From a virus: a stretch of 20,468 bases of DNA. This document shows, one piece after another, positions 193 to 4,512 of this stretch (positions are counted from its first letter, which is position 1; the number at the start of each line of letters is the position of its first letter). The notes beneath the pieces were generated by a model. It saw nothing but the letters and a program-made list of their open reading frames with translations, was not told the DNA's origin and ran no database searches. The stretch is taken from positions 1 to 20,468 of IMG/VR virus record IMGVR_UViG_3300012036_000035. One strand, 5' to 3'. The translations under genes and the position numbers were made by a program.

Positions 193-1011
193 ATGGATAA
201 CGGATTTATAAAATTATACAGGCAGATTCAAGATTGGGAATGGTACTCTGATTCTGCGACTGTTCACTTCTTTATTCACTGCATACTTTCAGCTAATTGG
301 AAAGACAAAAAATGGCAAGGAGAGGATGTAAAAAGAGGGCAGTTTGTAACAAGTCTTGCTAATCTATCAGTGCAAACGGGGCTATCTGTAAAGCAGGTCA
401 GGAAAAGAATTGAGCGATTAGAGGATAGCGGAGAGATAGAGTCGGAGGGCACACAATGGACAAAGATAACAGTTTGTAAATACAATACTTATCAACCAAA
501 GCATGAAAATGAGGGCACACAAAGGGCACACAAAGGGCACACAAAGGGCACACAAAGGGCAACAACTAAAGAAGGTAAAGAATATAAAGAAGGTAAGAAT
601 AACATAGTCACTGCTCTCGCAGATGACGTACCGAATGCTTCTGATTCTGTTACATGGGAATCTGCTATTCGTATATCGGAGTATCTTTTTGAAGCCATTT
701 GTGAAAATGACCCGACCCACAAATATGTTGCCAATAAACCCTCGCTAAAAGGATGGGTAAAAGAGATTGATTTAGCGCTCAGGCGTGACGGGCGAACCGA
801 AGAACAATTCATGTTTCTGATTGATGCGGTTTTCAGGAACCGAAATCAGTTTTCTCAGCTATGGGATAAATGGAACATCAACATTCAATCGGGTAAAAAA
901 CTTCGTGAAAAATTTGACTCAATTAAAAACCAAATCAAAGCATCGAAAAATGGAAATACAGGAAAACCGACAAAAGGCGATCTCCACGTTGAACTCCTCC
1001 GAACCATGTGA
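193..1011 (+). CDS. Phage replication initiator / replisome organiser (DnaD-like, lambda O analogue)
   Basis: This 272-residue protein looks like a phage replisome organiser that binds the origin and recruits the helicase loader or helicase. Residues 1-100 contain the typical start (MDNGFIKLYRQIQDWEWY) and a winged-helix region around LSVQTGLSVKQVRKRIERLE. Residues 107-138 are a low-complexity linker encoded by an 11-bp tandem repeat and a Lys/Glu repeat. The C-terminal part, ending in WNINIQSGKKLREKFDSI, matches the pattern seen at the end of phage DnaD-type organisers. I chose the ATG at 193 because this family starts at this point; an in-frame TTG at 160 lies inside the upstream hairpin. 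AAAAGG directly precedes the ATG but is too close for an ideal SD. The end overlaps the next gene by about 60 bases. Family assignment is by motif recognition, not alignment. Confidence 0.75.
   Translation: MDNGFIKLYRQIQDWEWYSDSATVHFFIHCILSANWKDKKWQGEDVKRGQFVTSLANLSVQTGLSVKQVRKRIERLEDSGEIESEGTQWTKITVCKYNTYQPKHENEGTQRAHKGHTKGTQRATTKEGKEYKEGKNNIVTALADDVPNASDSVTWESAIRISEYLFEAICENDPTHKYVANKPSLKGWVKEIDLALRRDGRTEEQFMFLIDAVFRNRNQFSQLWDKWNINIQSGKKLREKFDSIKNQIKASKNGNTGKPTKGDLHVELLRTM
447..606 (+). other. Candidate replication origin with 11-bp iterons inside the initiator gene
   Basis: Four perfect head-to-tail copies of GGGCACACAAA occupy 513-523, 524-534, 535-545 and 546-556, and a fifth partial unit begins at 557. 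A separate near-copy (10 of 11 bases) lies at 447-457, starting exactly 66 bases (six units) before the first tandem copy. Just downstream, 561-606 has only 11 G/C in 46 bases. It is purine-rich on the plus strand and contains TAAAGAAGGTAA twice (567-578 and 585-596). Iterons next to an AT-rich segment, within the coding sequence between the DNA-binding and C-terminal domains of the initiator, is the arrangement of the lambda origin in gene O. The repeat is seen directly; origin function is inferred. Confidence 0.6.
513..556 (+). repeat. Tandem repeat, 4 x 11 bp (GGGCACACAAA)
   Basis: Four identical 11-bp units lie in direct tandem. Since 11 is not a multiple of 3, each unit is read in a different frame, so the encoded peptide (EGTQRAHKGHTKGTQRA) repeats only every three units (33 bases). 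Exact nucleotide identity despite changing reading frame indicates selection or recent duplication at the DNA level rather than for the peptide. This supports an iteron role. Confidence 0.95.
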
Positions 1012-2367: not shown

Positions 2368-4512
2368 GTGGTAGAAGAAATCGAATTTACCCTTGCCCCC
2401 CCTCAAGATGAGTTTATAAATTCCGATAATAAACGGGTTGCCATTATCGCAGCAAAAGGATATGGGAAGGCGCAACCATTATGGGAGCCTGTACTGACCC
2501 CGGCAGGTTTTGTTTACATGCACGAAATAGAAGTTGGGGATTATGTCATTGGCTCAGATGGCAAGCCAACGAAAGTCAACGCTATTCACTGGCAGGGCAA
2601 AAAAGATGTTTATGAAGTCAGGCTATCAGACCGAACTTCCACAAGATGCACTCTTGACCATCTATGGGCTGTGCAAACAGGCTCAATGAAACACAGAGGG
2701 AAAGGATTTAAGGTAAAAAGAACAAAGGAATTACTTACTGATTTAAAAACATCACAAGGATATAACAAGTGGCATTTACCATTATGCGAACCTGTTGAAT
2801 ATTCATGGAAACCGAATTTAAAAATACCCCCTTATGCTTTAGGGGCATGGTTAGGCGATGGAGGAATGAGTAAAAAATCAGAGGTTGTATTCTCCACTGA
2901 TTTAATGCAAACTAAATCAAACACAAAGTTTATACCAAAGAAATACTTGTATTCATCTGTTGAAGATAGAATAAACCTTCTTCGTGGGCTTATGGACACA
3001 AAGGGTAACGTTACTCACGTAGGAACTGGTGAATTTTGCACGACATCGGCACAGTTAGCAAGTGATGTTGTTTTTTTATGTCAATCATTAGGCCTGACAA
3101 GTAAAGCGAATAAGTATAGCCAAAGGAATATAAACCATCTTGATTACTATTTGGTTCTTATAAACTCACCTTTTAACCCGTTTTCTTTACCAAGAAAGGC
3201 AGATAAGTTTAACATAAACGCCACTCAAGGAAGGGTTCGTGGGATTGATGCTATTGAAAAAGTAGGCAGAGAGTTATGTCAGTGTATAAGCGTTGATGCG
3301 GAAGATGGATTGTATGTAACTAAAGATTTTATTGTCACTCACAATACCTGGTCGGGAGCCAAGTTCATTGCAAAGCAAGCGATTGAACAACCTGACGTTC
3401 AACATCTTATCATGCTGAACACGCTTGGTCAGGCAAGAGATATTTTCTATCAGGATATTGAACCGCTTTTGCAGGATTTGGGATGGCCTTATCACTTCTC
3501 CCCACAGTACGGGAACCTGAAAATATTTGACACAACTTTCCATGTAAGATCAGCCGAAAAAGACTCTATCAAGCGTATTGAATCTATCTATTACGGGTCA
3601 GGGTGGGCTGATGAGGTGTCGTTTTTTGATTATGAATCATTCAAAATATTCTTTTCACGTATTCGGGTTGGCAAGAGTCTTGTTCGGGTAACATCCATGC
3701 CCGATGACCCTGAGCATTGGATGTATTCGATGTTGGACAAAGCAAATTTTACTATTCACGAAAAGAGCTTGTACGATAATCCTGATAAGGAATTTGTCAA
3801 GAACTACGAAGAAATTCTGAATGCGATCTATGAAGGCCCACAGCTAAAGCGCTATCTGTCAGGGGAGCGAGTCAGTCTTGCAGGGATGGGAATATTCAAT
3901 GTTCACCCCGACATGAAAGATCATATTCCGATTGACCCAGAAGAAGATATTGTGCTGTCTTGGGATTTCAACGTAGCCTATCGGGCCGTGTCCGCATGGC
4001 AAAAAACAGGGAGAGATGAACAGGGGCGACCCATCGTGGCGTGCGTAAAATCATGGCAGATGAAAGAGGACATCGTGTATCAGGATGCAGTTGTTTTGGC
4101 AAAAGAGTTTAAAGATCATGAAGGAATTATTTATCTTGGTGGAGATGCAAGCGAAAATAAACGTAGCTCTCAGACCACAGAAAGTATTTGGCAGACAGTC
4201 AGAAGGGCGTTTAAAGACGAAGAAGTAAGCAGTCGAAGCATTGTTCCGATCAAGAATCCGAATGTAAAAGACACGGTTCAGTGCTGTAATTGGTCGTTTA
4301 AATCAGGATTGGTTAATTTTGACCAAGCTGAAAAAAATGTATATTCTTCATTACAGGCAGCAAAGGCAGACAAATATGGTGAAATTGACAAATCAGGTGA
4401 TAACTCCCCAGGCGGTTCAAAATCTCACGAAGCCGACACAGCGAGATACGCTTTATGGTACTTTTTCAAAAATCTCTACCCTGGTGGAACCAAAAAAGCA
4501 TGGGTCGTATGA
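2368..4512 (+). CDS. terL: Terminase large subunit precursor containing an intein
   Basis: This is the packaging motor: an N-terminal ATPase that moves DNA into the prohead and a C-terminal RNase H-like nuclease that cuts genome units. The precursor has 714 residues. Residues 35-326 are an intein, leaving a 422-residue mature protein, a normal TerL length. The Walker A motif is split: AAKGYGK (28-34) joins TWSGAKF (327-333) after splicing. Walker B is GWADEVSFF with D415/E416. Nuclease acidic residues are D533 (LSWDFN), D593 (YLGGDASENKRSS) and D690 (SHEADTARYALWYF). The start is a GTG one base after the holin stop; an ATG at 2366 leads straight into a stop. The end overlaps the portal start as ATGA. 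No small terminase gene is recognised nearby. Confidence 0.92.
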   Translation: MVEEIEFTLAPPQDEFINSDNKRVAIIAAKGYGKAQPLWEPVLTPAGFVYMHEIEVGDYVIGSDGKPTKVNAIHWQGKKDVYEVRLSDRTSTRCTLDHLWAVQTGSMKHRGKGFKVKRTKELLTDLKTSQGYNKWHLPLCEPVEYSWKPNLKIPPYALGAWLGDGGMSKKSEVVFSTDLMQTKSNTKFIPKKYLYSSVEDRINLLRGLMDTKGNVTHVGTGEFCTTSAQLASDVVFLCQSLGLTSKANKYSQRNINHLDYYLVLINSPFNPFSLPRKADKFNINATQGRVRGIDAIEKVGRELCQCISVDAEDGLYVTKDFIVTHNTWSGAKFIAKQAIEQPDVQHLIMLNTLGQARDIFYQDIEPLLQDLGWPYHFSPQYGNLKIFDTTFHVRSAEKDSIKRIESIYYGSGWADEVSFFDYESFKIFFSRIRVGKSLVRVTSMPDDPEHWMYSMLDKANFTIHEKSLYDNPDKEFVKNYEEILNAIYEGPQLKRYLSGERVSLAGMGIFNVHPDMKDHIPIDPEEDIVLSWDFNVAYRAVSAWQKTGRDEQGRPIVACVKSWQMKEDIVYQDAVVLAKEFKDHEGIIYLGGDASENKRSSQTTESIWQTVRRAFKDEEVSSRSIVPIKNPNVKDTVQCCNWSFKSGLVNFDQAEKNVYSSLQAAKADKYGEIDKSGDNSPGGSKSHEADTARYALWYFFKNLYPGGTKKAWVV
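2470..3345 (+). other. Class 3 intein inserted in the TerL Walker A motif
   Basis: This 292-residue in-frame insertion separates Lys34 and Thr327 of the P-loop. Block A starts with Ala (AQPLWEPVLTPAGFVY) instead of Cys or Ser. Block B is CTLDHLWAV with T95, H98 and W100. Block F is CQCISVDAEDGLYV with C306. Block G is DFIVTHN followed by Thr. Thus Trp at B12, Cys at F4 (C306) and Thr at G5 (T324) form the WCT signature of class 3 inteins, which use the block F Cys as first nucleophile and need Ser or Thr at +1; here +1 is T327. A degenerate LAGLIDADG region lies between the splicing blocks. The splice junctions follow directly from P-loop reconstitution and the terminal His-Asn. Confidence 0.9.

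Follow-up and report, generated by a model that had tools for sequence, protein, structure and literature searches.

The closest described counterpart of the locus analysed here is gene 18 of Salmonella phage L, which reportedly holds six imprecise repeats of an 11-bp sequence, taken by the authors as the likely origin (PMC8022706); the phage L record carries a rep_origin annotation at this array. In phage lambda the origin lies inside gene O, where four 19-bp inverted-repeat iterons are bound by O dimers (PMC5043065) and an adjoining 40-bp A+T-rich region opens (PMC5043065, PMC3985674). Rep of plasmid pSK41 uses an N-terminal winged helix-turn-helix (HTH) to bind four boxes located centrally in its gene. 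The linker encoded by this origin is not needed as protein, the C-terminal domain is separate, and plasmid pPR9 provides a natural joint swap of domain and origin (PMC5703833). The RepA_N domain and the origin of PLE RepA covary and swap as well (PMC8263062), and the iteron plasmids RK2, F and P1 have direct-repeat iterons that are in phase with the helix and bound by monomers (PMC5043065).

The initiator gene and its closest counterparts

The window, that is the whole stretch of DNA analysed, is a linear virus record of 20,468 bases and probably a fragment. Its gene at 193-1011 encodes a protein that matches the profile of a DnaD-like helicase loader over its whole length (phrog_2514, E 1.2e-39, residues 1-259) and that of O-like replication initiation proteins (phrog_391, E 9.3e-14). 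No Pfam family scored above the cut-off, and RepA_N was absent among the Pfam matches of the protein up to E 1. The features discussed below are, in window coordinates:

193..1011, + strand: gene of the replication initiator or replisome organiser, 272 aa, from PHROG profile matches
193..492, + strand: winged-helix DNA-binding domain, residues 1-100, from an AlphaFold2 model
355..357, + strand: codon of Leu55, where the first HTH helix begins and where an Arg pairs with CCA in the iteron, from covariation and the model
391..393, + strand: codon of Lys67, at the second position of the recognition helix, which pairs with iteron bases 1-3, from covariation and the model
447..457, + strand: outlying iteron GGGCACACAAT in wing-coding DNA, exactly 66 bp (6 x 11) before the array
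513..556, + strand: four perfect tandem 11-bp iterons GGGCACACAAA, proposed initiator-binding sites, from TRF, match count and recoding
557..561, + strand: partial fifth iteron, GGGCA, from the sequence and the TRF row 512-565
561..606, + strand: A+T-rich stretch, proposed DNA-unwinding element, 23.9% G+C, with TAAAGAAGGTAA twice
637..1008, + strand: C-terminal domain, proposed helicase- or replisome-recruiting part, exchanged independently of the iterons

As in phage L gene 18, tandem 11-bp direct repeats lie in the linker of a homologous initiator, and the two DNA-binding domains are related. Phage L differs in having another unit (TGTCCAACGGA), an Asn aligned with residue 67 and an Arg aligned with residue 55, the latter accompanied by CCA as the rule described below expects. 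A DnaB-like helicase gene follows its initiator gene, whereas the next ORF of the window has no family match. By this likeness the origin proposed for the window would be of the same kind as that of phage L, and in-gene arrays of 11-bp repeats are already in print.

The initial annotation had seen the logic of the lambda origin with a different iteron. That analogy stands for the iterons inside the initiator gene and for the A+T-rich region alongside them, but not for the iterons themselves, which in lambda are dimer-bound inverted repeats of 19 bp and in the window 11-bp non-palindromic direct repeats. In having direct repeats in phase with the helix the window resembles RK2, F and P1. The iterons of these plasmids lie outside the rep gene, and their initiators are of other families. 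The initiator of the window would be like pSK41 Rep in its N-terminal winged HTH, in the boxes within its own gene, in a linker encoded by the origin and in the separate C-terminal domain, while the PLE iterons, intergenic semi-palindromes of ~30 bp, are unlike those of the window.

Several further observations concern the surroundings of the gene. The ORF at 821-1576 overlaps the end of the initiator gene and gave no Pfam or PHROG match of note; its position is held by a helicase or loader gene in several relatives. Directly upstream of the initiator gene, at 121-180, a candidate stem-loop (AAAGCCG ... CGGCTTT) was seen by eye. The gene for the terminase large subunit (2368-4512) contains an apparent in-frame intein (about residues 34-325) at the Walker A site, which matches LAGLIDADG_3 and Hom_end_hint and has a junction placed by eye between ...HN and T. 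Since a search with the portal protein returned only distant relatives, all below 60% identity, we propose no host for this phage. G+C skew, a check put forward in the initial annotation, is mostly positive over the 20 kb and does not switch, which is uninformative because all main genes lie on one strand.

The repeat as DNA and its recurrence among relatives

Exact copies of GGGCACACAAA start at 513, 524, 535 and 546, and TRF reports 512-565 as 5.0 copies of period 11 with 97% matches. When both strands of the 20,468-base window were searched with at most one mismatch, only these four copies and GGGCACACAAT at 447 were returned; 0.42 such matches are expected by chance, and five were reached in none of 100 shuffles. 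This confirms the four perfect tandem copies (513-556) and the near-copy six units upstream (447-457, 66 bp) of the initial annotation. Their placement in the linker-coding part of the initiator gene holds too, and recurs in relatives. The iterons run head-to-tail and lack dyad symmetry, matching their own reverse complement at 4 of 11 positions at best.

The four copies begin at codon positions 3, 2, 1 and 3; all three frames are in use, but copies 1 and 4 share one. We then compared the array with recodings that keep the same protein and the phage's codon usage. The lag-11 self-match score of the window is 39, against a mean of 6.5 and a maximum of 23 for synonymous recodings, none of which reached 39 in 5000 trials; codon shuffles scored 12.5 at most (0 of 5000 reaching 39). 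In an earlier set of 52 representatives from relatives, 44 had p<=0.05 under synonymous recoding, 37 of them p<=0.01, and the codon phase of the array end is variable (68, 49 and 16 arrays). The earlier claim that the DNA rather than the peptide is conserved is borne out by the failure of recoding to restore the repeat, and these comparisons confirm that the window repeat is constrained as DNA, beyond chance and beyond the peptide.

Because the exact tandem unit GGGCACACAAAGGGCACACAAA matched nothing in IMG/VR outside the window's own record, conservation was sought by period and by protein. Relatives of the N-terminal domain were found by tblastn in named phages of Vibrio, Cellulophaga, Pseudoalteromonas, Salmonella and others, with linkers of the same period and other units, such as GGGCAAGCAAA in Cellulophaga phi18:3 and TGTCCAACGGA in Salmonella phage L. 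The locus set was drawn from viral-contig scans, a bacterial-genome scan and named phage records; the scans gave the best 80 of 513, 556, 516 and 117 relatives, and the set is not a random sample. The domain was present in 335 loci of 336 examined, and merging 144 of the 335 at 80% identity left 191 representatives. Outside the 335 stand the window itself (L001-L003), two loci with the C-terminal domain only (L004 and L017) and one with no tblastn match at the settings used (L100). For lag counts, 5 of the 191 linkers and 30 of the 191 C-terminal segments were too short, leaving 186 and 161, respectively. Bacterial records include, by title, Bacteroidota, Firmicutes, Alphaproteobacteria and Gastranaerophilales.

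The best lag was 11 in 112 of the 186 usable linkers and 22 in another 16. A lag-11 score of at least 13 was seen in 128 of 186 linkers, but in none of the 191 segments from the domain or the 161 from the C-terminal part. Conservation in related phages, which the initial annotation had proposed to check, is thus common but incomplete: the array is found in 128 of the 186 usable representatives, and at the threshold used none was called in 54 of 191. Units resemble each other more within arrays (0.786) than between arrays at the same ordinal (0.561). In five named relatives a helicase or replication-protein-P gene lies 3' of the initiator gene.

Two IMG/VR linkers (L083 and L049) hold further or interspersed copies, of the GACAAGC and GACAGGC types, beyond the usual four to five units. 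In Mammaliicoccus phage phi31 (L013) the stretch after the domain is periodic at 12 rather than 11 bp, a candidate in-gene origin of other spacing. Record PP511318.1 (L011) encodes a replisome organiser, an exonuclease and an endodeoxyribonuclease, and its taxonomy line reads Microviridae, a label that looks wrong because the record is 35.8 kb in size.

Two neighbours of the array recur as well. The array's own unit, with at most one mismatch, is found 41-120 nt upstream in 50 of 123 arrays; as controls, the units of other arrays gave a mean of 4.5 (maximum 9) and the reversed unit gave 8. From this excess over the mean of 4.5, the near-copy at 447 is likely a recurring part of the origin and not a chance match. 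Upstream copies begin mostly at residues 78, 82 or 85, and their distances tend to lie 1 to 3 nt above a multiple of 11; an exact multiple of 11 (remainder 0), as in the 66 bp of the window, occurs in only 2 cases.

On the other side of the array, the 46-base stretch of 24% G+C with a repeated motif was recovered at 561-606 (23.9%), with TAAAGAAGGTAA at 567-578 and 585-596. Its low G+C is not special alone, because the gene also contains a 46-mer of 21.7%, which begins at 894. Among relatives, the 45 nt starting 10 nt past the array have a median G+C of 22% (124 arrays with enough sequence), while the medians elsewhere are 36% for the domain, 43% for the array and 36% for the C-terminal part; the flank lies below the C-terminal part in 112 of the 124. 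A disordered K/E/N-rich peptide could be a partial cause of this A+T-rich flank.

Iteron sequence and winged-helix residues

The AlphaFold2 model of residues 1-127, made with 79 sequences (mean pLDDT 85.3), has the fold of a winged helix, with mean pLDDT of 88-97 per ten-residue block over residues 11-100 and low pLDDT in the array-coded stretch. The first HTH helix (55-62) starts with residue 55, residue 67 comes second in the recognition helix (66-79), and the wing consists of strands 82-86 and 90-94. Foldseek gave weak structural matches (best E 8.8e-3), with CRP/CAP among the best. In a second structural comparison (VIA), 4pql, 4pt7, 5kbj and 4pta align over residues 1-99 with Z 7.9-9.1; their entry titles name an initiator, Rep or DNA-binding protein, and we take them to be RepA_N initiators. 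CRP/CAP domains score alike (Z about 8-9), over about residues 20-98, and a PDB sequence search found no match to RepA_N-type initiators, the best E of any chain being 0.077.

To relate protein to DNA, the arrays of the 137 representatives that have one were folded on 11 bp by DNA alone and then tabulated against the aligned domain. At unit positions 2-3, 62 of 63 representatives with Gln67 have AA, 31 of 34 with Lys67 have GG and 17 of 21 with Arg67 have GA; at positions 4-6, CCA is present in 30 of 34 with Arg55. Asp67 was accompanied by CCC in all four members of a small sample, Ser67 was mixed (7), and other residues at this position are rare. When all pairs of residue and unit position were ranked by mutual information above permutation, the top four were 67 with 2, 67 with 3, 67 with 1, and 55 with 5. 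The window, with Lys67, Leu55 and GGGCA in the iteron, fits this rule. As residues 55 and 67 are encoded ~120-160 bases upstream of the array, their association with the iterons is not a by-product of overlapping DNA. For wing residues 83-88, too, there is mutual information with the unit; it was not taken as a sign of protein-DNA contact, because the outlying iteron lies in the DNA that encodes them.

The rule had been formulated on loci up to L097, and 139 later representatives, less than 80% identical to those, served as a hold-out. Arrays were present in 92 of the 139, and 12 of the 92 bear a residue without a prediction. Agreement was 17/17 for Lys, 47/48 for Gln and 12/15 for Arg; at position 5, Arg55 had C in 27 of 30 (one A, two undecided) and other residues had A in 58 of 62. 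Among disjoint nearest pairs that differ in Gln versus Lys or Arg, the unit base shifts as predicted in 44 of 48; the corresponding counts are 16 of 17 for Lys versus Arg and 29 of 30 for a difference at Arg55, and in none of the three comparisons was the opposite shift seen. In control nearest pairs with the same residue the unit base differs in only 2/51, 1/23 and 4/60. This test ignores deeper relatedness, and its p values are optimistic. It was used in place of a tree test: the tree of ~100 domain columns is poorly supported, and a strict phylogenetic test was ruled out because supported branches leave only 2, 1 and 1 independent pairs, which nearly always go in the predicted direction.

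As an additional check we counted motifs at 11-bp spacing without folding the arrays, and the outcome is in agreement. GGGC or GGGAC was found in 31 of 34 arrays with Lys67 and 0 of 103 others, and ACCA in 31 of the 34 arrays that have Arg55 against 4 of the remaining 103. [ACT]GAC occurred in 20/21 arrays with Arg67, 0/34 with Lys67, 2/63 with Gln67, 0/4 with Asp67 and 5/15 with rarer residues. [ACT]AAC occurred in 63/63 arrays with Gln67, and also in 15/34, 12/21, 2/4 and 10/15 of those with Lys67, Arg67, Asp67 and rarer residues; it is less telling, because AAC recurs later in many units. As to exceptions, a Lys67 subgroup (L025, L048, L066) has a unit that folds differently and breaks the folded-unit rule, and the Arg67 exception L129 appears by eye to be a folding error, yet was counted as a miss. 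Altogether, the comparison shows that iteron sequence varies in step with winged-helix residues 67 and 55.

The C-terminal domain behaves differently. L004 joins the same C-terminal domain, 80-82% identical, to a different N-terminal domain, and an array of 11-bp units was looked for in that locus and not found; a search with the C-terminal domain returned 2 loci only, one of them the L004 contig. When 303 C-terminal parts were sorted into 36 clusters, the larger clusters held several iteron types, mostly with the fitting residue 67. By comparison across loci, the iterons go with the DNA-binding domain, independent of the C-terminal domain.

The array as a proposed origin and other readings

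We consider that the array is a phage replication origin inside the gene of its own initiator, bound by the winged-helix domain, and put the probability of this reading at roughly 0.84. It is the in-gene origin of the initial annotation, now supported by an anatomy that recurs, by repeats constrained as DNA and by iterons that vary with winged-helix residues. From these comparisons of sequence we infer the following course. The winged-helix domain (residues 1-100) would bind each 11-bp iteron, one protomer per iteron and hence per helical turn, with all protomers on the same side of the DNA. The GG of GGGCA would be read by Lys67, which lies where the recognition helix begins, and iteron base 5 by residue 55. 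The row of protomers may strain the DNA, and bending could draw in the outlying iteron at 447 as well; the stretch rich in A+T (561-606) would then open, and the C-terminal domain would bring the replicative helicase or its loader, giving the array its origin activity.

Binding of the array by its own protein might instead serve transcription control (in-gene autoregulation) or partition and not initiation. Covariation points to cognate recognition but says nothing of its purpose, winged-helix proteins are mostly regulators, and the best Foldseek and VIA matches include CRP/CAP. We nevertheless regard such a function as unlikely: the protein matches replication families, the A+T-rich flank recurs as a neighbour (112 of 124 arrays), helicase or protein-P genes come next in five named relatives, and among the precedents such sites act as origin in pSK41 and probably in phage L. 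It is conceivable that the array acts as an operator as well.

Selection for a peptide repeat, 11 residues per 33 bp, for example as a basic linker in contact with DNA or with partner proteins, would account for the ATTK and ATTN-like motifs that recur at the array end in many relatives. It is very improbable given that the DNA repeat was kept in 0 of 5000 recodings of the window, that recoding was significant at p<=0.05 in 44 of 52 representatives, and that the codon phase of the array end varies over 68, 49 and 16 arrays. Replication slippage in an unconstrained linker, with the by-product kept because the peptide is disordered, fits both the perfect identity of the four copies, if slippage was recent, and the low pLDDT of the array-coded residues. 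Yet the best lag of 112 of the 186 linkers is 11, a period not divisible by 3, units change from array to array together with residues whose codons lie some 120-160 nt upstream, and synonymous recoding destroys the signal; we give slippage the least credence of all.

Returning to the in-gene origin, we think it likely that its specificity follows a joint scheme. In this scheme residue 67 would set iteron bases 1-3 (Lys with GG, Gln with AA, Arg with GA, Asp with CC) and residue 55 base 5 (Arg with C). Domain and iterons would form a portable, self-matching cassette that recombines with unrelated C-terminal domains in phages and prophages of several phyla, with an extra site in the wing-coding DNA. 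For the residue-to-base rule, for how widely the 11-bp class is spread and for an iteron within the DNA that encodes the wing, no earlier description was found among open-licence PMC papers, a scope outside which most subscription papers lie, and prior description is possible.

If the scheme is true, the sequence and compatibility of an origin would be predictable from the protein alone. Most phage origins are unmapped, and the rule would predict origins and compatibility groups for many phages and prophages from sequence. It would also offer a clean system in which a DNA-binding protein and its site change together within one gene. Finally, what drives a fast turnover of specificity would become testable, be it incompatibility or origin-directed parasites and nucleases as reported for PLE and ICP1 (PMC8263062).
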